The position numbers and the translations under genes were made by a program. Below are positions 1,492-41,446 of a stretch of 64,000 nt of DNA, in pieces. Each line of letters opens with the position of its first letter. The stretch's first letter is position 1. Source of the DNA: a virus; the IMG/VR virus record IMGVR_UViG_3300032163_000011, positions 1-64,000 of that record, one strand, 5' to 3'. A model generated the notes under the pieces. The model saw nothing but the letters and a program-made list of their open reading frames with translations. It was not told where the DNA came from and did no database searches.

Positions 1492-4400
1492 TCAAAATCC
1501 CAAAACCTTATATGGGTTTTTCTTCTCTTTGGTCCTGGCGACTGGGTTGACGGGAGACCTCTTGCCTTTGTCCCCCTCCAGCTTCGCCAGCCTGTCGCTC
1601 AGGCTCTTCTCCAGGGCACCCTCTATCGCCCCCGGCTCGCCCATCGTAGGAGCCTCCTTGAGAATTCCCAGGCCCGTGGTATCAACCCTGGTGCCCTTCT
1701 CCGGGATGGTGAGTTCTCCAATCTGGTCTGCCAAATCGTTGAGGCCCATATCTTTCAGAAGGGCCACCAGCGGCTCCCGCAGCTTGACCAGGTTCTCGGG
1801 CTTCTCGGTCATCACCTTCTTTAGGATGTAGGGCTGCCATTGCTCTTTCTCATAGTCGCTGCCGGCCTCGAAGGCGCGCATCGCCCATTCCAGGGGCAGT
1901 TTGGTAAACCGGGTCAAGCCGGCGGGGATCTGAGACTCCTTGACGACCTCCTGGACCTGCTGGCGCGTGATTTTCCCGTCGGCGATGGACTCGGCGGCCA
2001 GGTCATCGAAGCCGGCCTGGTCCTCGTCCCGGGCCATTTTCATCAGGTCGGCCTTCAGTTTCTTTTTCTCCGCCGACTCCTTGGTGGTGGTGGTGGCCCT
2101 GGTCAGCTTATTGTATTCGTCGATGATGTTCTGCGCCGGCGTGTTGCTGTATTGCCGGGGGACCGGGGTGATGCCCACCACATTAAGGGCTTTGGACTGA
2201 GGAGTCTCAGCCTTCAACATGCCCTGGACCCCGAACGGCAAGAACGATTTACCCAGATACTCACCGGTCTGTTTTAGCTGTTCGCCACCGGTGGCCCAGG
2301 GGTCCCGGATCTGCTCCCCGAAGTAATCCTGATTCGACGCCAACGCTGAGAACATCCGGATGGGGAAGTTCGTCTTGTGCGCCACCATGTCGATGGGATG
2401 ATTCAGACTGAGAATATCCCTCATGTAAGAGGGCATCCGCACCCGCTCCGGCTGGCCGTTGGGGAGAGTGCCACCGGTCTGCGGCATGAACACATCCTTC
2501 ATATCCGTGGGCCAGTTGCCGGTGAGCAGCTTCATGGTGAGGGAGCCCGCCACCGCCGTCACCATGGTCATCCCCAGGTAGAATTCCATGGACACCCGGG
2601 CCTGCCGGGTCATGGGTTCGTAGCCGGGCCGGCGGCCCTGTACCATTTCAGCCCCGGCCTTTCCAGCCTGGCCGATCAGGTGGCCGATCCCCTTGGCACC
2701 CTCCAGCATCAGCGACCCAGACCCGATGTTCCACCCGGGAAACCCGATCCAGATCCGCAGGATGTCCCTCATGGACCGCTTCATCCCCAGGTTGTCATAG
2801 ACCATCTGGCCGAAGATGTTATCGGCCTCCCGTGAGACATCTTGGGCGATCCGGGTTTCTTCATCACGGGAGGGGGCCCGGCCTTCCTTCTCCCGGAAGC
2901 GTTCCAGTTCCATGCTCAGGCGCCGGTCGATGGCGTTGAGTTTGATCCGGGGCACGAAGTAATTCATAATGGGCCAAGAAATTCCTCTAATCATCTTGCG
3001 CGGCAGGCTCAGTTTACTGTCCCGCAGAGCGTCTTCAAAGGCCTGGGTCATCTTCGAGAAGTCTGAGGCATTGATCCGAATTCCGCCCCGTTCCATCAGG
3101 TCCACCCGGGCGGAAAGCTCCGGGTGGGTCCCGGGCTTGCGGTATTCCTCCATCAGCTTTCCGCCTCCCAAAAGATTTCCCGGGGTGTTCAACGCCTTGC
3201 CCATCTCGACGAGGTGGTGGCCAGCCGCATCGAACCGGCCCGTCAGGGCGGCGCCGATGGCCCGTGAGAGGTTGCTGCCAACTCCCTGGGAGAGGTCAGA
3301 GAGGGTCGTGAAGAAGCCGTGGAAGGCGCTCAAGCCCACGAAGAGCTCGCGGAGGGCTGAGGTGGGGTTGTCGATGGCGTCGAAGATGGCGTTGCCCCTG
3401 AGCCCCTTAGAGAGAAAGTTATCCAGCACCCGGGCCACATCCGGATGAGCATAATAGCCCTGCAGGGACTTATCCCTCAACTCCACCCATCCGGGGAATT
3501 TTCGCTTTTGCAGGAAACCCGCCTCGATGTAATCGTTCTTGATATAGGTCCCGGTGAGATACCGGAGGGATTCGTGAACCTTGGCCTTCATCATGTCCAC
3601 ATAGTTGTCGTGGGCCAGTTCCAGGCCCAGGCCGCCCTCCGCCACAGGCTTGACGGATTGCGACAGCAGCAGTTGGGTTCTGGCTTTAAGCATCCCCTCC
3701 GGGCCGGTCATGCTGCGGCCGTGGCTTTTGAGAAATTGTTCAATGACGGCTTCGGCCTGCGCCGGGTCTTTGAACATCCGGGGAAACCAGTCTCGCCAGT
3801 AGGCGAACTCTCCACCTTTCGAGTCGGCGATCAGGAGGTGGAGCCCGTCAGCCAGTCGGCGCCAGGCCCCCGCTGCTTCCTGTAACTCGGGGCTCACCTG
3901 CCCCAACTGCCCCATTTCTGCCTTGTCGGTGAAGGCCATAAGGTCTTCCTGGCTCATGTTCCGGAAAAGTTTGTCGTACTTCCCCAGGACCGTGACGGCC
4001 TTCTCCATCTCCCTGGCGGCCCAGCCCAAATGCCTGACCACGCTGGTATGCGCCAGGTCGGAGAGTTCGGAGACCTTCCGGATGGACATATTCTCGTTCC
4101 AATTCCTGCGGATGGCACCCAGCTTTCCCGGGACCTCCTTGGAAACAGTCAGGTTCGGTGGGGGCTCCAGGGCTCCCTCCGGGGGTAACAGGGGGTTGCG
4201 GCCCACGGCCTCGGTCCCGGCCGGCTGCTGCAGGGGACGCTTCGGGTCGTAAAACCTCTCATAGATTTCCTGCTTCGAAAGGAATCGCTTTTTGCCCTTC
4301 TCGTCGATGATCTGATTCCCGGCGCGGTTGGTGAACCGCTCACCCTGGTAGAGGGGGATTTCCCGGCTGCCCGGCATGATGTAACGCTGGTACAGGGCCT

Positions 4401-7400
4401 CGTTGTCCTTGTCCATCTCACCCTTAAATTGTTTGAAAGAAGGGGTCTCGCCCCGTTCGATCCAACTTTGGCGGGTTTCGGCTTCATCCTCCACCTTCAA
4501 TTTACGGGGTGCGATGGCCGCCGGCAGCTTGCGCTCCACCGGCTCCCGGCCGAAGAGTTTCCCACTCCGGGCCGCGGCGAAGACATCTTCGCCGGAGACC
4601 TTGCCGGTGATGGCCTTGACGATCCGCTGGAAGAAATCAAGGATCTTTTGGAAGACGGTATTGGGGGCTTCCTTGGGTTTCCAGTTGGCGTAGGCTTCCG
4701 CCCGGACCTCCTCGTTGTCGCCAAAGTCCCGGGCCAAGGCCGCCCGTTCCTTGTCGTTAAGCAGCCAATGTTCAATGTTGTGCCAGGATTCGTGATCGAA
4801 GGTCCGCAGCCCCTCCCCCCGGGCCAGTTCGATGACGCTGCCAAGGCCAATAGGCCGGAAGGCCCCAGCGATTTTCTCGCCTGGGCGTAACTCCGTTCTC
4901 CCTATGGCCGCATAATCAGGGCCAAGGTCCTTGGTATCGCCGGTTAAGAACAGAGAGCCTTCTTTACTCTCGAAAATGAAGGCCATTTGGTCATTTTTGA
5001 ATTTAATCGTCCAGCCGCGGTTGTATTTCCCCGTGCTCTCAGAGGCGATTTCGCTGACCGTGCCGTTCTCACCCAAGCGGGATTTGATCTGGCCTGTGGT
5101 CAGGGCCCGGGCAATCTGTCCCTCCGGCGTGGCCTTGAACATCGGTTGCCCGTTGTAGAGCACCGAGTCCCGCATGGAGTCGGGGATGTCAAAGTGGGCA
5201 AGGGATTCAGCCTTGTTTTTTTCGGTCCTTGGAAACCCTTGCTCATCTATAAACTTTTCTGGAAAGGTCTCAACATCCTTCTTCCCAACCTCCGCCCCCC
5301 ACTGTTTCACATACTTCTTCAGGTAGGACGGGATGGTCTTGTCGTAGAGGTTGTTGGCCCACTCGCCGCCGACTTGGAGGTCGAGGTTAGAGAGACGGTT
5401 CCAAATCTTGGGTTTCTCATTGTTACCAGCAAAATTCTCAGGCTTGCCCTGTCCTTCAATTATCTTGGCGGCAACATCCTTGCCGATGTGGTTCTCAAGT
5501 TCTTTCTCAGGGATAGCCTCACCAATTAAATTTCCCCGGCCATCTTTCTGGTAACTGAGTTTATATGTGCCGTCAGGGTTTTTCTGATAATCCAAACCAT
5601 CAATTTTCTTTGAAAGATCATACCGCTGCTTAACCATATCCCCATTAACGACCATCACCCCGTCGTAGCCGTTCTCGGCGGCGTACCGGATGGCCTGTTT
5701 CAGCGCGACCTCGTGCCAGCTCTTGGCGAAGGGGAGAGGGGGCGGTCCATTTTGGGCATTGGCGATATTTTTATCGTTTAATTCTCGATATTCCTGACGT
5801 TCTGCTTCGGTAAATTCACCTGTAGCAATTTTTTCAGAAAGCCTTTTCCATCTATAAAATTCTTCGTTTGTAAATTCAACCTTATACCCCTTACTCCTCC
5901 CCTCCCTGGCCCAATCGCTCTGTGTCTCCGTGACCACCAGGAACTTCTTCCCGGTCTTGGGGTCAACGTAGTCGGCCAGGAAGACGTGGGCGAAGCGATT
6001 TACGTCCGCGGCGGTGTCGCCGTAGGCGTGGGCGGAGGGAACACGGTAAAGACCTTCCGGTTGATTCCCTGGAATAGCCCCACGTTCAAAATAATCTTGT
6101 GCCCTCTGCCTTGCTTCGGCCTCAGAATGACCAGCGGCAAATCCGACCCCTTCTGCATTGACGGCCAAAAACCATTCACCATCTCGAATGATTTTAAAAT
6201 CAGGATGAGGGATATTAGCTGGCAGCGTCAGCAGCATCTCCCGCCGGTTGGTGAAGGACTCCGGCAGGTCGGTTAGGTAGGACTGGAATTGGGTGGCACC
6301 AGGGAATGGACCTTCCCCAGCAGGACTTTCATTCTCAGTTAAGAAATTACGCTTCTCCACCACCTTAACCCGGACCTCACCCTCCTTCAGCTTGTCCAGG
6401 ATTTGTTGCTTCGTCACCGTCCCCTTCTGTTCCCGGAGCCAGGGGATGATACCGGACACCTTGAGTTCGTCAGCCTTGAACTGCCCCTTGGCACCCCAGC
6501 CCTCGATGAGTTTAGCCAGGTCTGCCCCGGTGCCCTTACCAGGGAGTTTTATTTCCAGGTGGTTCTGCATCTGGGAGAAGAAGACAGGGCCGTACCGGCG
6601 GGCTTCCTCGACGGAATACCTCTTACCATCGGCCGGCAACGGAATGTCGAATAGCCCCCCACCGCCCCCGCCAAAGAGGCCCTGCTGCCTTCCGGGAGTC
6701 GCCGCACCGCCGAGTTTCTGTTGCTCTGCTTCAGACAGGCCAGAGCGCACCATCCGGTGGAACATCTCCGGATCGGCCACCATGTTGGCGACTTGATCGT
6801 TTTCGGCTTTGGGGAAGGAACGGAGGACCTGTGAGGCTTTATCCCGGTCGATGTCGGGATACTCGCCCTGAAGTTCGGTGAGGCGGGTTTCTAACTTTGA
6901 GGTTGGCCTTTCCTGGGCGCTAAGGCCAGGGGCAGCCTCTTTGACGGAGTATTTGGTAGTGGACCCTCCGGGGCCGGTTGGTAATTCTCCAGGGGCGGCA
7001 GGTGCGGGTACTTTTCCGCGTACTTTTGCTCCAGCAACTTGGCCAAGTCCGGCGGCGTCGCGGTCGGATTCGAGGGCTTGAGGGAGTCTGGCATAAAATT
7101 CTTCCTTGACCTGAGTTTTGTTACCGCTCTCTTGTAATTTAGCGGCAAACTCTTTAAAAAGCAAGTTGGTTTTGGAGCCTGGCACAAAGGCGGCCTTGTC
7201 CAAAACAGCTAACCCAATGGCTGCGTCGTTGGAAATCTTCTCGTTGATCTTGGGTTTTATCTTGTTGCCAGCCTCAATTAACTTCTGCGCTTTGGCGCTG
7301 ACAGTCTTAAATAGATTCTTTTCATTGGCCAGTTTCTTTGCTGCATAAGTCATCAGATCAGAATTTTCACTGACCAAGTTGGCCTTGGCAAAATCCTCGA

Positions 7401-10400
7401 ACTCTTCCCCTAAAATCGGTTGCCTGGTAGGCACCACCTTCGAGAACTCAGCAAACCGAATATCGTTCTTCAACTTCTCATCGGAAATAGAGATATTTCC
7501 GTTCTTATCCGTGTGCTTCTTCTGGATTAATCTATAAATGGCCTCCTGGGCATCCGGGTTACCAGGGAGTTGTTCGCCGATGATGGCACCCTTTGGAGCG
7601 GGGAAGTCACCCTTAGCAACCGCGGTAAAAATGGGCTCAGAGAGGTTGGCCAACCCGGTGGCAATCAGGGTATGCTCGGAATTAAGATCAATGCCATTTT
7701 GGCTTAGGTCTTCAATCGTGAGACCAAAATCCCGGATAGCCTTGGCCGAATCCACCACGGTCCCGGTCCGCTGGCGGATGTTGGTCAGGGCCGCGGTGGC
7801 ACGGGCCTCTTCCACGGTGAAGACATTGCCATCGTAAATCCGTACCCCGTAGCCACTGACACCCACCCGGTCCCCGGCGGTTATCCGGGAATGGCCATCC
7901 ATCAACTCCACATGGCCATCGGGATAGCGGTACAGGGATGTCTCTCTGGCCGCCTGAGCATCCCATTGGGATTTGTTCTTGACGTGGGCCAGGGCTTGGC
8001 CGGCCCCGGTTTCGGCCATCTTGTGCTGCCAAACATCGGGGTTAAGCTGGATCTGATCACGAGGGAAGTTGTCATGGTAGGAGACGCCGGAGGTCTCCGG
8101 TGCCACCCTCTCCCCGGAGACCATCCGTTCGCTGTCAGTCCTCAGACCTTCCGGGGCCCTCTGATTGGAACCGAACTTCTGAGTAAACTCTTCCGGGGTC
8201 CTGGGAGCTATCGCCTGGGGGAGTTTGCTTCTCTTCCCCTTCGCCTCAACCGGGGCGGGGATGGCCTCCTCCAATGCCCCAGGCACCGCTGGCGGGGCGA
8301 TCTCCTCCGGGGCCGTGGTCTTTATTACCCCGTACTTCTCCGCCAAGTCGGGATACGCCTCGAAGTGGCCTAACTCTGAAGATTGTTCGTGAGTTAATCG
8401 TCCAGTAGAAAGATAACGGTCAACTTCCGCTTTGTGGGTTTTTGTAGCTATTTCAATTTCTCTCTCTGATTTTGCATTTTTATATTTAAGGTACTCAGAC
8501 AAAGATTTTTCATAAGTTGACTTGGGTATTTCGGAGGTCTTTATTGACACTCCGGGAATAATGACCCCACCAGCTTCTTCGGCAGGCCGGGCCAAGTTCT
8601 CCGCCTCGGCTCCAGACGACCCCATGGGTGCCATCGGGCCTGTAGGCTCCGGAACGGCTGCCTTGGGTTTTGCTTCACCCGCCGGCGTCGGCGAGATACC
8701 CACCGTCCCCCCACCGCCAGCCCGGGCCGGTGCGCTGGAAGGAGGTTCTTCAGGAGGCGGGGCCTTGGCCTTGGTCGGCTCCGGAGCGGCGGTGCCCGGC
8801 AAGGAGGTGGAACCGGGAGGGGGAGCCGCCGCCCCAGGCGCCGGTGTCTCTGTGGCAACACCCCGTCCCATGGGCTGATCTATAATTCCAGCCGGGGCCG
8901 GGGTTACCTCTTTCTGCTGCTCCGTGGCCAGGGAAGACATCTCCGGGAATTCTTTCAGGGCCGTGTCAGCGTCGCCCTTCTGGTAGAGATCATAGAACCG
9001 CTCGGCCCGGGCTTGGTCGCCGATCTGGGGCACCAGGGCCCGAACTGCATCAGCTTGGTTCGCTTGACCTTCGATAGTCTCCCCCAACTTCCCGCCGAAG
9101 ATGGCCTCTTTCTTGGCTTCAGGGGTGAGGGTGGTCACCTCTGGGGTTTTACCAAAGGCAGATTCCCCGGTCTGGTCCACCCCATATTTCTGAGCGATAG
9201 TCTGGAGATCCTGTTGAACCTTTTCAGCCACCGCGGGGTCAGGAGCCGGAGCGTTCGGGTCTTCCTTGACCTTGCCCTGAAAGACATCCATCACCTCTTT
9301 AAATTCGTCATCACTGAGGTTGTAGTCCTTCTTAAATTTATCCACCCAGCGGCGCATCAATTCCTGTTGCGGTTGCCCCCGGGTGCCGAACATGTGGGTG
9401 CCGTAGCCTACCCCAAACTGCACGGCCAGGGAAACCGGGTCACGGTCTCCGCCGATGGCGCTGGCTCCCATCATAGCGGTTCCGGTTGCCAAGCCTTCCA
9501 GTTGCCGCACCAGGTAAGGATTAGAGACTACCTTAGCGAAGGGCAAGGATTGGGCGACAGTGAACAGGACCGCCGAAGGGATCGACCCCTTAGCCGCCTC
9601 CAGCATCGCCGCCGGATCATGTCCTTGCGCCGTGGTCTTGGCCGAATCCACCAAGCCAAAAGTCATAAGGTTGGTAGCAAATTTCTGTAAAAAGGTCGAG
9701 GCCCCGCCACCGCCGCCAGCCATCATCATCGGGGCGAATCCGGCCAAGCCGCCAATAATCTTCCCCGGCATGGTGACATATTCATCACCTTCCCCGGACA
9801 TCGGCAAACCAAGTTGCGAACCCTTCAGGAAGGCGCTCCCGGCCTCCTTGACCTTATCGGAAATACCCCACCACGACTGCGGCCCGCTGGTGACATCACC
9901 GTGTTTGATGAGGCGTTCCGGAATGGACAGAAGATTTTCCAAGCCTTGGACTACAGTTTCCACGCTCCCCACAATAGGTTCAAAGAAGCCACGAGTGACC
10001 TCCGGGATGTTCTTGGCAACCCTCTCGGCTGTGGTTTCTGGTCCTACAGGAACGCCCGGAACCGGAGCAGTGGCCCCCGGTAACACACCTTGGGGCTGTT
10101 CGGGAGGAGTCACTTGGGCGGGCGAAGCCGCTGGTTCTTCCTGTCTCCCGCCGAAGTCAGGAATGGCTTCCGCTGGACTCGGCGACATGGCCGGCTGGCG
10201 AGGCGCGATGGCCGGGGGCAGATAGCCGCCCATAGGCCCAGGGACCTTCTCGGGCGGCTTCGGTGCTTCCTCAACCGGCGCGGCCGCTGCAGGCGCAGGC
10301 GCGGGCTTGGCCGACAGTATGCCCTCAAACTTTTTCACCAAATCAACAGGGGGAGCGGCCTCACCAGGAGGCGGGGTGCCACCGGGTTGCGGGGCCTCCT

Positions 10401-10464
10401 GCTGTTTAAGGATACCCTCAAATTTGGCGATTAAGGGGTTATCATTCTGCTGTAAGTCGGCCAT
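1492..10464 (-). CDS. Giant polyvalent (DarB/ejection-type) virion protein, 2990 aa
   Basis: Multi-domain protein of the large polyvalent class carried in virions and injected with DNA. Visible parts: a Pro/Ala-rich N-terminus with two FEGIL motifs (about 15-19, 46-50); a Gly/Ala-rich hydrophobic region about 225-370, possibly membrane-active; a Pro-rich linker 520-650; a ParB/DdrB-like domain about 795-1000 with MDGHSRITAGDR; a polyvalent-protein domain near 1500-1620 with VTETQSDWAREG; a zincin-like HESWH near 1890 with a downstream EVRAEAYA; and a long helical C-terminal third with hydrophobic segments near 2560-2660. The motif LPxAIAPR recurs near 82, 750 and 1980 between domains. Roles such as host-takeover, antirestriction or channel formation are inferred from the class. 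It is preceded in transcription by the 10476-11528 gene and followed by 612-1316. Confidence 0.85.
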   Translation of the reverse strand: MADLQQNDNPLIAKFEGILKQQEAPQPGGTPPPGEAAPPVDLVKKFEGILSAKPAPAPAAAAPVEEAPKPPEKVPGPMGGYLPPAIAPRQPAMSPSPAEAIPDFGGRQEEPAASPAQVTPPEQPQGVLPGATAPVPGVPVGPETTAERVAKNIPEVTRGFFEPIVGSVETVVQGLENLLSIPERLIKHGDVTSGPQSWWGISDKVKEAGSAFLKGSQLGLPMSGEGDEYVTMPGKIIGGLAGFAPMMMAGGGGGASTFLQKFATNLMTFGLVDSAKTTAQGHDPAAMLEAAKGSIPSAVLFTVAQSLPFAKVVSNPYLVRQLEGLATGTAMMGASAIGGDRDPVSLAVQFGVGYGTHMFGTRGQPQQELMRRWVDKFKKDYNLSDDEFKEVMDVFQGKVKEDPNAPAPDPAVAEKVQQDLQTIAQKYGVDQTGESAFGKTPEVTTLTPEAKKEAIFGGKLGETIEGQANQADAVRALVPQIGDQARAERFYDLYQKGDADTALKEFPEMSSLATEQQKEVTPAPAGIIDQPMGRGVATETPAPGAAAPPPGSTSLPGTAAPEPTKAKAPPPEEPPSSAPARAGGGGTVGISPTPAGEAKPKAAVPEPTGPMAPMGSSGAEAENLARPAEEAGGVIIPGVSIKTSEIPKSTYEKSLSEYLKYKNAKSEREIEIATKTHKAEVDRYLSTGRLTHEQSSELGHFEAYPDLAEKYGVIKTTAPEEIAPPAVPGALEEAIPAPVEAKGKRSKLPQAIAPRTPEEFTQKFGSNQRAPEGLRTDSERMVSGERVAPETSGVSYHDNFPRDQIQLNPDVWQHKMAETGAGQALAHVKNKSQWDAQAARETSLYRYPDGHVELMDGHSRITAGDRVGVSGYGVRIYDGNVFTVEEARATAALTNIRQRTGTVVDSAKAIRDFGLTIEDLSQNGIDLNSEHTLIATGLANLSEPIFTAVAKGDFPAPKGAIIGEQLPGNPDAQEAIYRLIQKKHTDKNGNISISDEKLKNDIRFAEFSKVVPTRQPILGEEFEDFAKANLVSENSDLMTYAAKKLANEKNLFKTVSAKAQKLIEAGNKIKPKINEKISNDAAIGLAVLDKAAFVPGSKTNLLFKEFAAKLQESGNKTQVKEEFYARLPQALESDRDAAGLGQVAGAKVRGKVPAPAAPGELPTGPGGSTTKYSVKEAAPGLSAQERPTSKLETRLTELQGEYPDIDRDKASQVLRSFPKAENDQVANMVADPEMFHRMVRSGLSEAEQQKLGGAATPGRQQGLFGGGGGGLFDIPLPADGKRYSVEEARRYGPVFFSQMQNHLEIKLPGKGTGADLAKLIEGWGAKGQFKADELKVSGIIPWLREQKGTVTKQQILDKLKEGEVRVKVVEKRNFLTENESPAGEGPFPGATQFQSYLTDLPESFTNRREMLLTLPANIPHPDFKIIRDGEWFLAVNAEGVGFAAGHSEAEARQRAQDYFERGAIPGNQPEGLYRVPSAHAYGDTAADVNRFAHVFLADYVDPKTGKKFLVVTETQSDWAREGRSKGYKVEFTNEEFYRWKRLSEKIATGEFTEAERQEYRELNDKNIANAQNGPPPLPFAKSWHEVALKQAIRYAAENGYDGVMVVNGDMVKQRYDLSKKIDGLDYQKNPDGTYKLSYQKDGRGNLIGEAIPEKELENHIGKDVAAKIIEGQGKPENFAGNNEKPKIWNRLSNLDLQVGGEWANNLYDKTIPSYLKKYVKQWGAEVGKKDVETFPEKFIDEQGFPRTEKNKAESLAHFDIPDSMRDSVLYNGQPMFKATPEGQIARALTTGQIKSRLGENGTVSEIASESTGKYNRGWTIKFKNDQMAFIFESKEGSLFLTGDTKDLGPDYAAIGRTELRPGEKIAGAFRPIGLGSVIELARGEGLRTFDHESWHNIEHWLLNDKERAALARDFGDNEEVRAEAYANWKPKEAPNTVFQKILDFFQRIVKAITGKVSGEDVFAAARSGKLFGREPVERKLPAAIAPRKLKVEDEAETRQSWIERGETPSFKQFKGEMDKDNEALYQRYIMPGSREIPLYQGERFTNRAGNQIIDEKGKKRFLSKQEIYERFYDPKRPLQQPAGTEAVGRNPLLPPEGALEPPPNLTVSKEVPGKLGAIRRNWNENMSIRKVSELSDLAHTSVVRHLGWAAREMEKAVTVLGKYDKLFRNMSQEDLMAFTDKAEMGQLGQVSPELQEAAGAWRRLADGLHLLIADSKGGEFAYWRDWFPRMFKDPAQAEAVIEQFLKSHGRSMTGPEGMLKARTQLLLSQSVKPVAEGGLGLELAHDNYVDMMKAKVHESLRYLTGTYIKNDYIEAGFLQKRKFPGWVELRDKSLQGYYAHPDVARVLDNFLSKGLRGNAIFDAIDNPTSALRELFVGLSAFHGFFTTLSDLSQGVGSNLSRAIGAALTGRFDAAGHHLVEMGKALNTPGNLLGGGKLMEEYRKPGTHPELSARVDLMERGGIRINASDFSKMTQAFEDALRDSKLSLPRKMIRGISWPIMNYFVPRIKLNAIDRRLSMELERFREKEGRAPSRDEETRIAQDVSREADNIFGQMVYDNLGMKRSMRDILRIWIGFPGWNIGSGSLMLEGAKGIGHLIGQAGKAGAEMVQGRRPGYEPMTRQARVSMEFYLGMTMVTAVAGSLTMKLLTGNWPTDMKDVFMPQTGGTLPNGQPERVRMPSYMRDILSLNHPIDMVAHKTNFPIRMFSALASNQDYFGEQIRDPWATGGEQLKQTGEYLGKSFLPFGVQGMLKAETPQSKALNVVGITPVPRQYSNTPAQNIIDEYNKLTRATTTTKESAEKKKLKADLMKMARDEDQAGFDDLAAESIADGKITRQQVQEVVKESQIPAGLTRFTKLPLEWAMRAFEAGSDYEKEQWQPYILKKVMTEKPENLVKLREPLVALLKDMGLNDLADQIGELTIPEKGTRVDTTGLGILKEAPTMGEPGAIEGALEKSLSDRLAKLEGDKGKRSPVNPVARTKEKKNPYKVLGF

Positions 10465-25449: not shown

Positions 25450-26712
25450 TCAAACCTCCTTCCACCAAAGAGCGCCAGGTCCAGATGACACCCCTTCTAA
25501 ATCGTCAAAATACTGATTTACGGCTTGCTTAACCCCGGGATATTTAGGATCGGTATAGTCATGGCCGCAGATTAAGCGCCGAGTCCTGGGAGCCCAAAGT
25601 TGCAAATCCTTCATCACCATGTCGTAATCATGGTTCCCGTCGATAAAGACCATATCCACCACGGGCGGCAAGCTGTCAGAAGCCGCCGCCTCGCTGGTCA
25701 TTCTGCGGGCGTGAAGGTTGGGGAAATGCCCAACATTCTTTATGAAGTCGTCGTAGGTGTCCTTCCCGGCCAAAGATTCGTCAATGATCTGGCCTTCGTT
25801 AAAGGGATCGACAGCGTAAACCGGACCCTTACAGCCGGATAAGAGGGCATAAGTGCTCCTGCCCTTGTAGCTGCCGATTTCCACGATGGAGTCCATCTTC
25901 TGAGCCTTGTCGTAGAGCCACCGGAGTTCCGGTCGGCTCATCCAGCCTTCGATTGCGTCTGCCTTATCGACGGGACCGGCCATGAGTTCCCTGTAAAATT
26001 TGGGCATAAGCTCGTTGACCCGCCAAGCCACAAGGCGCTGCTGCAGTTCATCGAGCTTCTGGTCCAGCGGCAGCAGATAGTGGTGGAAGAAAAATCCACC
26101 GCCTTCCTTATAATTTGTCGCCAGGACCTTCCGAAGATCGACATACTTCAGGCCGTACTTGGCGATGTTCCGGCTGAGAAGGTAGTCGTCAATGAGGTGG
26201 GGGGCGGTAACGACACCGCCCACCAGTTCCGCCACCGATGGCTGGATGTTGGCAATCGCTTCAACCGGCGTGAGATCGTCAGGCGGTTTCCAGAGGTCGA
26301 TGCACAGATCGCTGGCTATGGCCAGCCAGTTGCCCGAACTGATGTGGCGCCCGTCTCGACGGAAGAACCGGTCGGACCTCCACCTGGCGGGAGCGAAGTC
26401 CGACCCGAAGTGAGCCACGGTGTCCCGGTCCAGGATCGAAGTCAGGTCCGGGGTGTCCGGGTGGACGAGGGCATCGGAGTCGATGTAGATGTTCCAGTCG
26501 TTCTCCATCTGCTGGGCCAGTTCGTAGATTTGCAGCTTCTCAAAGGTCACCGGCCACTCGGGAAACTTCCTCTCGCTGATGACATGGAAATCAGCATCAA
26601 TCTTGCAGGCGTAGGCCTTCAAGAGAGGGTAGGTGAGCGCCGTCATCTCAGGCGAGTACCCGTCCACGTTCAGGGTAAAGACGGTCTTCTTGACTCTTTT
26701 CTGCCAAGCCAT
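25450..26712 (-). CDS. Glycosyltransferase-methyltransferase fusion
   Basis: 420 residues in two domains. Residues 1-260 look like a GT-A glycosyltransferase: TLNVDGYSPEMTALTYPLLKAY at the start and IYIDSDALVHP with a DxD-type metal motif near 77. Residues 270-420 are a class I SAM methyltransferase of the Methyltransf_24 type: VEIGSYKGRSTYALL (glycine-loop motif), VYAVDPF, then DMVFIDGNHDYDMVMKDL and a final GHDYTDP. It lies among head genes, so it may modify a capsid or tail protein or host glycan. Substrates unknown. Confidence 0.78.
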   Translation of the reverse strand: MAWQKRVKKTVFTLNVDGYSPEMTALTYPLLKAYACKIDADFHVISERKFPEWPVTFEKLQIYELAQQMENDWNIYIDSDALVHPDTPDLTSILDRDTVAHFGSDFAPARWRSDRFFRRDGRHISSGNWLAIASDLCIDLWKPPDDLTPVEAIANIQPSVAELVGGVVTAPHLIDDYLLSRNIAKYGLKYVDLRKVLATNYKEGGGFFFHHYLLPLDQKLDELQQRLVAWRVNELMPKFYRELMAGPVDKADAIEGWMSRPELRWLYDKAQKMDSIVEIGSYKGRSTYALLSGCKGPVYAVDPFNEGQIIDESLAGKDTYDDFIKNVGHFPNLHARRMTSEAAASDSLPPVVDMVFIDGNHDYDMVMKDLQLWAPRTRRLICGHDYTDPKYPGVKQAVNQYFDDLEGVSSGPGALWWKEV

Positions 26713-39476: not shown

Positions 39477-39659
39477 TTAAAACAATCCTTGGTTCACTGC
39501 CTTCACCCGGGCCTCAGCGACGGGGATGCAGTCGCCGTCGTTGTCCAGGCCCACCGCCCGGCGCCCCATGGCCTTCACCGCCACCAGGGTCGTCCCGGAA
39601 CCCATGAACGGATCCAGGATGATGTCCCCCGGCCGGGAGCCGATGGCGATCTGACTCAT
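39477..39659 (-). pseudogene. Remnant of a DNA N4/N6 methyltransferase
   Basis: 60 residues beginning MSQIAIGSRPGDIILDPFMG and continuing GSGTTLVAVKAMGRRAVGLD. This is the C-terminal portion of beta-class methyltransferases, with motif I (DPFMGSGTT) but no catalytic DPPY motif or recognition domain. The ATG overlaps the stop of the upstream gene. It cannot methylate alone; it may be a leftover or a domesticated SAM-binding piece. 39414-39476 holds a possible 17-codon leader after GGAGG. Confidence 0.7.
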
Positions 39660-40188: not shown

Positions 40189-40347
40189 TTACTCCTCCCC
40201 GGGTCCTTGTGGACCCCAGCCTCTTTGCACTCGTAATGGTTGTTGACCGGCACCCCCTCCAAGCATGTATCCCGGCAAGGCGTTCGCCCTGTCGATTCTT
40301 TCATGCGCCTCCCGGAGGGATTTCAGAAAGTCGGGCTGGTCAGCCAT
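40189..40347 (-). CDS. 52-aa small protein
   Basis: ATG at 40347 overlaps the end of the methyltransferase gene by 8 nt. Reads MADQPDFLKSLREAHERIDR, then a Gly/Pro/Gln-rich end. Helix plus disordered tail; unknown function. Confidence 0.45.
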   Translation of the reverse strand: MADQPDFLKSLREAHERIDRANALPGYMLGGGAGQQPLRVQRGWGPQGPGEE

Positions 40348-41446
40348 CGTGGTCTCGCATGAAAGCCTTGATAAATTCCGCCCCTACTTCCGGCGAGATG
40401 GCATTACCCGCGGCGCGCAGTCGTCCCACTCTTGCGGGAACCCTAACAGCCAAAGGGGAAAGGCCGGGTTTAGTTGGCCTGAACTTCCCGTCCCGGCAGG
40501 GGAGCCATTCGCAGGAGGACCAGAAATTTGAGCCGCTTCGTTGATTGAGAATTGTTTCTTGCTGCCGCTCGGCCTCTTTCTCGCCAAGGGATCGCTGCTG
40601 GTCCTGCCCCCGCTGCCCGAGTGCATGTCCGGTGTCAGCCACGGCGCACACTCCGCCATTTTCCTCCGGTACTGCCCCGAACTCTGGCCGTGGCTGGCTT
40701 CCGAGGTTGGCGCACTCATCGGCGTCGGCCAAGGCGCTATGCTCCTGGCGATCTGGTCCATCCCCATCTCGTGCTTCCGGTCTCCGCCCCGGCTCCTGAA
40801 GTTGTCCACTTGCGGTGTCGGCCACGAGGCCAGTTGGGCTTGCTCCCCGAGGTAAATTGGAACCGTGTTCTGGTTCGCATTTCGCTTCCGGAAGGCCGCA
40901 CATTTCTCCATCGTTGCTTCGTCCCTTACCCGATCTACCGAAGTTGGCGTGGCCCACGAACCACAATCGCTGCCTGATGTGGAACGCACCGACGCCCGCA
41001 GCGCACAAATCAGCCGCCCCAACGGCGTAACCCTCACCCTCCAAGTCATCCGAAACAAGGTCAAGCCACTCAAGGGCAGCCTTGCTCGCAACCTGTTCTC
41101 CAAAGATGACTGGAGGCCGGCAGACCCGGATGAGGTGAAACCAGTACGGCCATAGGTGCCGCTCGTCAGCAAACCCCGCTCCCCGGCCTGCCGTGCTGAA
41201 AGATTGGCAAGGGCAGGATCCGGTCCAGACGGCTTGGCCATCAGGCCACCCGGCGAGGCGTAGGGCGTAAGGCCACCCCCCAATCCCGGCAAAGAAATGA
41301 CATTGGCTGTATCCCATAAGCTCGGCTGGCGTGACATCCCTCACATCCCTCTCGTCCACTTCGCCCGGCGGAATATGACCCGCCTTAATCAGCTTCCTCA
41401 GCCACTTCGCACAGAACGGGTCGATCTCGTTGTAGTAGGTCGTCAT
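40340..41446 (-). CDS. dcm: C5-cytosine DNA methyltransferase
   Basis: 368 residues. Motif I FFAGIGGW (about 50-57), motif IV GSCPCQSFS with the catalytic Cys (about 77-85), motif VI-like FGEQVAS, motif VIII RQRLWFVG and a late motif AAGNAISPEVG are all present. It transfers methyl groups to cytosine in DNA, presumably protecting phage DNA from restriction. The recognition region (about 180-300) is Gly/Pro/Ala/Asp-rich with repeated VADT/LADA motifs and overlaps a second long frame (40384-41337). Confidence 0.9.
   Translation of the reverse strand: MTTYYNEIDPFCAKWLRKLIKAGHIPPGEVDERDVRDVTPAELMGYSQCHFFAGIGGWPYALRLAGWPDGQAVWTGSCPCQSFSTAGRGAGFADERHLWPYWFHLIRVCRPPVIFGEQVASKAALEWLDLVSDDLEGEGYAVGAADLCAAGVGAFHIRQRLWFVGHANFGRSGKGRSNDGEMCGLPEAKCEPEHGSNLPRGASPTGLVADTASGQLQEPGRRPEARDGDGPDRQEHSALADADECANLGSQPRPEFGAVPEENGGVCAVADTGHALGQRGQDQQRSLGEKEAERQQETILNQRSGSNFWSSCEWLPCRDGKFRPTKPGLSPLAVRVPARVGRLRAAGNAISPEVGAEFIKAFMRDHDG
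40384..41337 (-). CDS. Putative overlapping gene in the +1 frame of dcm (WPTP-repeat protein)
   Basis: A 317-residue frame lies almost wholly inside the methyltransferase gene. It carries repeated WATPT, WPTPQ, WPTPM and WLTPD motifs and a C-terminus LNPAFPLWLLGFPQEWDD. Proteins with WPTP repeats and an LNPxxVxWLMGFPxGW end are a recognisable phage type found next to C5 methyltransferases. Each WPTP falls exactly where the other frame reads VADT or LADA. GC-rich DNA can create chance frames, so the family-like ending is the main support. Expression is unproven. Confidence 0.5.
   Translation of the reverse strand: MSRQPSLWDTANVISLPGLGGGLTPYASPGGLMAKPSGPDPALANLSARQAGERGLLTSGTYGRTGFTSSGSAGLQSSLENRLRARLPLSGLTLFRMTWRVRVTPLGRLICALRASVRSTSGSDCGSWATPTSVDRVRDEATMEKCAAFRKRNANQNTVPIYLGEQAQLASWPTPQVDNFRSRGGDRKHEMGMDQIARSIAPWPTPMSAPTSEASHGQSSGQYRRKMAECAPWLTPDMHSGSGGRTSSDPLARKRPSGSKKQFSINEAAQISGPPANGSPAGTGSSGQLNPAFPLWLLGFPQEWDDCAPRVMPSRRK

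Follow-up and report, generated by a model that had tools for sequence, protein, structure and literature searches.

Introduction

Lee et al. reportedly found in 1995 that the gene for the small subunit of M.EcoHK31I lies inside the gene for the large one, in another reading frame. The large subunit of this two-chain enzyme carries motifs I to VIII and X together with the predicted target-recognition domain (TRD), and motif IX resides on the small subunit (PMC3404938). M.AquI, also composed of two chains, has its catalytic motifs on one chain and the distal variable region with motif IX on the other (PMC3404938). The multispecific C5 methyltransferases of the Bacillus phages SPR, phi3T, and H2 contain tandem TRDs and combine several specificities (PMC8936443). 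Out-of-frame coding within a phage methylase gene has been described for ShiLan, where the second product is an HNH endonuclease (PMC11855218).

We analyzed a window of 64,000 nucleotides, positions 1 to 64,000 of the viral record IMGVR_UViG_3300032163_000011 (69,415 bases in full). The minus strand of the window holds a gene at 40340-41446 for a predicted C5-cytosine DNA methyltransferase catalytic chain of 368 amino acids, here called alpha (PF00145, 1.8e-10; phrog_363, 6e-77). Nested within it, at 40384-41337 on the same strand, is a +1-frame gene for a 317-amino-acid protein, beta, which we propose to be the subunit that supplies the TRD and motif IX.

As in M.EcoHK31I, motifs I to VIII and X are found on one chain of the window pair, alpha, and motif IX, as judged by pattern and position, on the other. 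However, selection places the recognition cassettes of the window pair on beta, whereas the predicted TRD of M.EcoHK31I is on its large chain, and M.EcoHK31I is a restriction-modification enzyme (YGGCCR), whereas the window pair belongs to a phage. Because a TRD is not predicted on the large chain, we regard the window pair as working like M.EcoHK31I rather than as a member of that system. By analogy, we infer that it is a two-chain C5 methyltransferase organized like M.EcoHK31I and widespread in phages. The division of labor in M.AquI (CYCGRG) resembles that in three relatives of the window pair, the contig locus L306 and the phages Samy and Upyo, where motifs I to VIII are on one chain and the TRD, IX, and X on the other; unlike M.AquI, the window type keeps motif X on the catalytic chain, and its second gene is wholly nested. 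The tandem, exchangeable cassettes of beta, about 35 amino acids each, recall the enzymes of SPR, phi3T, and H2, although a role in DNA recognition is inferred for them; the Bacillus phage enzymes are single chains read in one frame, whereas the cassettes of the window lie in another frame and on another chain. In ShiLan, too, a phage methylase gene encodes an additional protein out of frame, but there it is a mobile insertion encoding a homing endonuclease, whereas beta spans most of alpha and is conserved with it.

Results

Organization of the two frames

The catalytic PCQ, the SAM-binding motif I, and motifs VI, VIII, and X are all present in alpha. Alignment with M.HhaI located motif I (the SAM-binding segment FAGIGG, matched to the N-terminus of M.HhaI) at 41276-41293, motif IV with the catalytic Cys (PCQSFS, aligned to PCQAFS) at 41195-41212, motif VI (GEQV, a variant of ENV) at 41090-41101, and motif VIII (HIRQRLWFV), which overlaps the first WATP of beta, at 40955-40981. 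Motif X (AAGNAISP, 40391-40414) contains a GN that is invariant in the alignment. Two further conserved segments lie ahead of motif I: YYNEID (41420-41437), which we take to be motif II by comparison with known C5 methyltransferase motifs, and VDERDV (41342-41359), whose assignment as a motif III-like segment is inferred. The resulting order, II, III, I, then IV onward (YYNEID, VDERDV or VDERSI, FAGIGG, and PCQ), is common to the aligned relatives of the window clade. A second nested clade has the ordinary motif order and is nested without the reordering.

In an AF2 model, alpha residues 1 to 170 are well folded, and most of residues 173 to 308 and 328 to 347 fall below a pLDDT of 50. The best Foldseek match of this model is M.HhaI (1.4e-7), and the fold also matches M.HaeIII. 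Neither the model nor the motif alignment revealed an ordered TRD or a motif IX in alpha. Its features are those of a C5-cytosine methyltransferase catalytic chain, a prediction from sequence in which methylation activity is inferred.

The first-pass annotation had proposed likely dual coding at this locus, based on a 317-codon second frame inside the methyltransferase gene with four WxTP motifs and a LNPAFPLWLLGFPQEW ending. These landmarks are indeed present. The beta open reading frame (ORF) starts with ATG and lies wholly within the 368-codon alpha ORF, in the +1 frame of the same strand; its WxTP motifs are WATP at residue 128, WPTP at 172 and 203, and WLTP at 233, and LNPAFPLWLLGFPQEW occupies residues 289 to 304. 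The motifs open four cassettes, all on the minus strand: cassette 1, a W.TP module (residues 128 to 171, 40825-40956), cassette 2 (172 to 202, 40732-40824), cassette 3 (203 to 232, 40642-40731), and cassette 4 with a linker (233 to 288, 40474-40641). The first-pass annotation also held that every WxTP coincides with a VADT- or LADA-like motif of alpha. This is true of three of the four (VADT, LADA, and VADT under cassettes 2, 3, and 4), and the first lies over VGHAN, the end of alpha motif VIII. The coincidence, which had suggested that both motifs are conserved together, is dictated by the genetic code (TGG CCN ACN CCN, when its reading is moved back by one base, encodes [LVM]-A-[DHNY]-[TPAS]) and thus offers no separate evidence of joint conservation. 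VADT and LADA, taken earlier for a feature of the methyltransferase recognition region, are a passive +1 shadow of WPTP, and selection is on the nested frame.

Upstream of the cassettes, beta contains an N-terminal hairpin, GLTLFRMTWRVRVTPLGRLICALRAS (residues 91 to 116, 40990-41067), which is overprinted on alpha motifs VI to VIII. AF2 assigns it a pLDDT of about 75 to 90, and many of its positions are nearly invariant in homologues. The motif IX-like segment at the other end (40426-40473) has L289, P291, W296, L297, P301, and W304 invariant in 100 beta homologues and occupies the place of the motif IX segment in single-chain relatives. Its pattern, L-N-P-x-x-x-x-W-L-x-G-x-P-x-x-W, has what we take to be the spacing of C5 motif IX. 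This assignment rests on pattern and position only; the Pfam C5 model gives no more than a weak match to the motif IX region, and does so in a tandem relative (E 0.2, profile positions 270 to 322).

A protein search with beta, the check proposed earlier, returned annotated homologues. Beta matches phrog_1008 over most of its length (residues 39 to 309, E 6.4e-23) and phrog_31772 (1e-12), both labeled DNA methyltransferase; the PHROG families of the pair are phrog_363 and phrog_116 for alpha and phrog_1008 and phrog_31772 for beta. Two overlapping coding sequences corresponding to the same proteins as window alpha and beta are annotated in four phages, K1G, fTaEco01, Toothless, and PhiXhv-5. 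Both are labeled simply "DNA methyltransferase," and the nested two-subunit logic is absent from the records; among the matches listed, most of the phage records have a single named feature at the matching place. Pfam, NCBIfam, PADLOC, and PDB revealed no known-function domain in beta, searches of PDB and Pfam with beta or its profile returned no relative, and the WxTP cassettes did not match solved TRDs. Modeled alone by AF2, beta gave a poor model (pTM 0.28), and a fold search with it found no PDB match and nothing usable.

Elsewhere, the window encodes a phage integrase, a DnaB-type helicase, RecT, a Holliday-junction resolvase, and a large terminase, a gene content that points to a likely temperate phage. 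A 60-codon ORF at 39480-39659 on the minus strand matches N6/N4 DNA methyltransferases (PF01555, 3e-13) in their C-terminal portion with DPFMGSGTT and lacks the remaining protein; it is probably a remnant of, or a frame break in, a second methyltransferase gene. The C-terminal third of a 420-codon ORF at 25453-26712 (minus strand) matches phrog_2675, "DNA methyltransferase" (2e-19), and positions 1492-10464 of the same strand form a single ORF of 2,990 codons, very long for a phage.

Beta compared with chance expectation and across homologues

As a null model, the alpha protein was held fixed and its synonymous codons were shuffled, 1,000 times for the window gene. A +1 ORF of the real length was reached in 0.2% of these shuffles, in which the longest +1 ORF averaged 156 codons. 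Over 171 loci, the mean +1 ORF was 326 codons as opposed to 167 in the null. The +2 frame was no more open than in the shuffles; it contains about 15 stops per gene, whereas the beta ORF stays open. The shuffles draw on the codon usage of each gene, which has already been shaped by beta, and the ORF-length null is therefore conservative. On the strength of the shuffles and stop counts, we rejected a chance ORF in high-GC DNA. The length of a single ORF at high GC is only suggestive, and it is the comparison across relatives that decides.

Loci on viral contigs were gathered by the alpha frame alone. A homologous beta was found in the same +1 frame in all 80 of the best alpha-profile matches, with a median coverage of window beta of 97%, and the reverse search on viral contigs, from beta to alpha, gave the same result in 80 of 80 loci. 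One scan of bacterial genomes, in which loci were again selected by the alpha frame alone, also found beta nested in the same +1 frame at each of the 80 best-matching loci, which are mostly from Pseudomonadota, with others labeled Leptospiraceae, Planctomycetota, Kiritimatiellae, and Verrucomicrobiota. These counts refer to best profile matches, some of which are close relatives (204 of 254 loci were unique). Annotated phage records with beta matches numbered 208, and coverage was at least 80% in 142 of them.

When compared with the window, the alternative frame of homologues had a median score of 172 bits, whereas synonymous shuffles of the homologue codons had a median of 67 and a maximum of 125, and none of 1,600 shuffles attained the real similarity. 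The +2 frame also scored above its shuffles (137 versus 72 bits), as would be expected if the wobble bases are under constraint. Pattern scans gave a similar picture: the WPTPT[AT]RDW sites analyzed were nested in 79 of 79 cases and the VEWLMGWP sites in 77 of 80, the three exceptions being two incomplete ORFs, each at the end of a contig or stretch, and a locus with a shifted frame. These counts led us to reject stand-alone WPTP genes unrelated to methyltransferases as the source of the motif.

Selection along the gene

Wobble identity was measured at 4-fold degenerate codons in 124 nonredundant sequences. In the N-terminal codons of alpha outside the overlap it was 0.32, with 0.275 expected from codon use. 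Inside the overlap, it was 0.36 where beta begins and is weakly conserved, 0.43 around alpha motif IV, 0.69 and 0.66 in alpha residues 101 to 170, 0.54 in the cassette region, and 0.76 and 0.77 in residues 301 to 354. Past the end of beta, the value was 0.41.

In a second approach, isolated substitutions in 45 independent close pairs were classed by their effect in both frames, with only one pair per sequence so as to reduce the effect of kinship. In alpha residues 37 to 170, alpha-nonsynonymous changes occurred at 0.66 times the expected frequency if they were synonymous in beta and at 0.17 times if they were not. Alpha constraint is dominant in the catalytic region, and beta constraint is also present there. 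In the cassette/TRD region, changes that were nonsynonymous in alpha and synonymous in beta were found at 2.6 times the expectation, as opposed to 0.47 times for those synonymous in alpha and nonsynonymous in beta. Both frames are constrained at the C-terminal end. Substitutions creating a beta stop were absent from the overlap (0 versus about 56 expected), whereas stop changes in this frame did appear upstream of the beta start. Over 1,752 nonindependent cassette pairs, alpha stops were likewise absent (0 versus about 466 expected), from which it follows that translation of alpha has to continue across the cassettes to reach motif X; with few exceptions, the alpha frame of the loci is open to this point.

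Beta is itself subject to purifying selection, and in the cassette region it is the beta frame that selection favors, with alpha merely kept open. The substitution pattern and wobble identity, by revealing constraint in both frames, bear out the suggestion of dual coding. Together with the conservation of the frame in homologues, they confirm, at the level of coding sequence, that beta is a real second gene within the alpha gene.

The cassettes behave as modules. Each beta of the family contains one to five of them, with a median inner length of 35 amino acids, and cassettes of the same family can take any position from first to fourth, depending on the protein. In locus pairs whose alpha chains are less than 62% identical, cassette identity was 0.75 in the beta frame versus 0.42 in the alpha frame; these cassette-level pairs are not independent. 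The comparisons indicate that cassettes are shuffled between positions like TRDs, their role in DNA recognition being inferred.

Initiation signals of beta

The ATG of beta (41335-41337, minus strand) is formed inside the alpha codons for D37-V38 (GATGTC), and it occurs at the same place, an alpha Asp-Val, in 74 of the 124 nonredundant homologues. It is preceded, at a distance of 10 nucleotides and again within alpha codons, by a Shine-Dalgarno (SD)-like GAGAGG (41348-41353). In the family, an SD-like AGGAG or CGGAG is formed by the Arg-Ser codons preceding the ATG. The predicted anti-SD pairing was -6.0 kcal/mol versus -3.75 kcal/mol in synonymous shuffles and was stronger than in the shuffles in 96 of 122 loci. 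The SD core was found in 55 of the 70 loci with the canonical beta start. Half of these loci (35 of 70) use the rare Arg codon AGG at the SD position, compared to 3 of 53 other loci; elsewhere in these genes, the figure is 7.7%. In the second nested clade, the start of beta seems to follow that of alpha by four bases (ATGAATGAG; MNELALFAG and MSWLYS), as inferred from the translations.

Rearrangements of the same parts

In Mycobacterium phage Hamulus, a single chain, gp68, contains motifs I to VIII, LPTP cassettes, a motif IX-like segment, and motif X, and both families recognize it, that of alpha (phrog_363, 2e-78) as well as that of beta (phrog_1008, 4e-80). Phage Ovechkin encodes nearly the same protein split into two genes. 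Beta-type genes with motifs IX and X follow the catalytic gene in Ovechkin (gp70), in the Streptomyces phage Samy (gp50), and in the Gordonia phage Upyo (gp53), and in the latter two, the beta frame is also open upstream across the catalytic gene. The profile of window-type beta matched that of this actinophage group with 97% probability over the cassettes; the hhalign match did not cover motif IX.

Other loci divide the parts differently. In L306, alpha stops after motif VIII, and the TRD, IX, and X are on beta. In L352 and L353, the N-terminal alpha frame runs into a cassette and motif IX, and X is in another frame. Only the cassettes are in the alternative frame in L418 and phage Darolandstone, where motif IX stays in the alpha frame; a scan with a GC-rich LPTP pattern found a single contig, L418, with its cassettes in the +1 frame and IX and X in the alpha frame. 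Most of the rearranged loci contain the same parts, differently allotted between frames, and some could be sequencing errors or decay.

Three loci depart from the common layout in other ways. In a bacterial genome (Consotaella, L420:2947-4158), one stop breaks alpha after motif VIII, and the nested beta is intact. At L003:2974-4449, the beta frame remains open as far as the MT-A70-like adenine methyltransferase (DPPW) downstream and runs into it, which may be a fusion or a mere overlap with the downstream gene's own start. A Citrobacter plasmid (L176:1501-2059) has a beta-like match in two pieces that cover roughly half of beta; it lies close to an integrase, with no listed gene beneath, and is possibly a decayed copy of beta on a conjugative plasmid.

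Discussion

We propose that the window encodes a nested two-chain C5 methyltransferase, alpha and beta being produced from one stretch of DNA and the targets being set by cassettes, and we assign this reading a probability of about 0.83. Frame 0 would give alpha, with SAM binding, catalysis, motifs I to VIII and X, and a disordered linker in place of a TRD. The +1 frame would give beta by its own initiation, from the SD sequence and ATG embedded in alpha codons. Beta would consist, in order, of an N-terminal domain encoded over alpha motifs VI to VIII, one to five WxTP target-recognition cassettes, and motif IX. Once assembled, alpha and beta would methylate phage DNA, presumably to counter host restriction, and the cassettes would set the target range of the enzyme. 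The comparisons show directly that the locus is dual-coding, that each of the two frames is under selection, that selection on the cassettes is frame-specific, that cassettes are shuffled, and that the fused form exists elsewhere. The translation of beta, its binding to alpha, the action of the cassettes as TRDs, and restriction evasion are inferences. There is no direct evidence for the translation or the binding, which weighs against the model, and so does the fact that motif IX is not always on beta, since L418 and Darolandstone keep it in the alpha frame.

A programmed +1 frameshift after motif VIII could instead join the alpha N-terminus to the cassettes and motif IX, in which case beta would not be a separate protein. 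The fusion order I to VIII, cassettes, IX does exist in one frame, in Hamulus gp68 and the ORFs of L352 and L353. We nevertheless consider a frameshift unlikely, given that a conserved ATG and an embedded SD sequence are available to beta, that the N-terminal region of beta, which the fusion would skip, is itself constrained (0.66 versus 0.17 times the expectation in alpha residues 37 to 170), and that almost every locus keeps alpha free of stops as far as motif X. That the nested beta protein exists but has a function of its own, e.g., in regulation or antirestriction, and no part in a methyltransferase would agree with its lack of a known-function domain in Pfam, NCBIfam, PADLOC, and PDB. 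It seems quite improbable, because the C-terminal half is of beta type where the methyltransferase is a single chain, because the beta-type sequences of tandem and split relatives include motif X, and because the parts missing from alpha are exactly those found on beta. Most probably, we infer, beta is the TRD and motif IX half of the same enzyme rather than a random overprinted passenger.

The remaining alternative is that beta is untranslated, its conservation merely reflecting that of alpha at the level of DNA or codon bias. The elevated +2 score means that constraint is visible in every frame, but the +2 frame is riddled with stops and beta is open, strong wobble constraint is confined to the overlap, and in the cassettes the alpha protein is free to change while beta is kept. 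A shadow of main-frame conservation is thus rejected by the alternative-frame scores, wobble identity, substitution classes, and cassette pairs, and we find it barely credible.

In the open-licence full text searched, we found no description of the phage class of nested two-chain methyltransferases, and the label "Mte8-like" carried by some such genes has one passing mention in the literature, unexplained. Nesting as the rule for a large phage class, selection on the nested frame in the cassette region, and the movement of cassettes as modules appear to be undescribed in the searchable literature.

We favor, with some reservation, the view that beta is a swappable, multimodule specificity subunit born of old dual coding, in which cassette exchange is selected in beta and has to leave alpha free of stops. 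If this is true, the arrangement spans phages of Pseudomonadota, Bacillota, Cyanobacteriota, and Actinomycetota, and every incoming cassette must be free of alpha stops, so that one segment answers to two unlike constraints. Long, deeply conserved nested genes on the same strand are rare, and proof of selection in two frames is rarer; here, hundreds of phages keep about 950 bp open in both frames, and the constrained frame shifts along the gene. The nested two-chain model would explain a large class of phage C5 methyltransferases seemingly without a recognition domain, the overlapping "DNA methyltransferase" annotations in several phages, and the possible inactivity of an enzyme whose cloning silences one frame. 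With the cassettes, the choice of targets by such enzymes can be tested directly, and the fused, tandem, part-nested, and fully nested forms together would provide a route to study the origin of overlapping genes.
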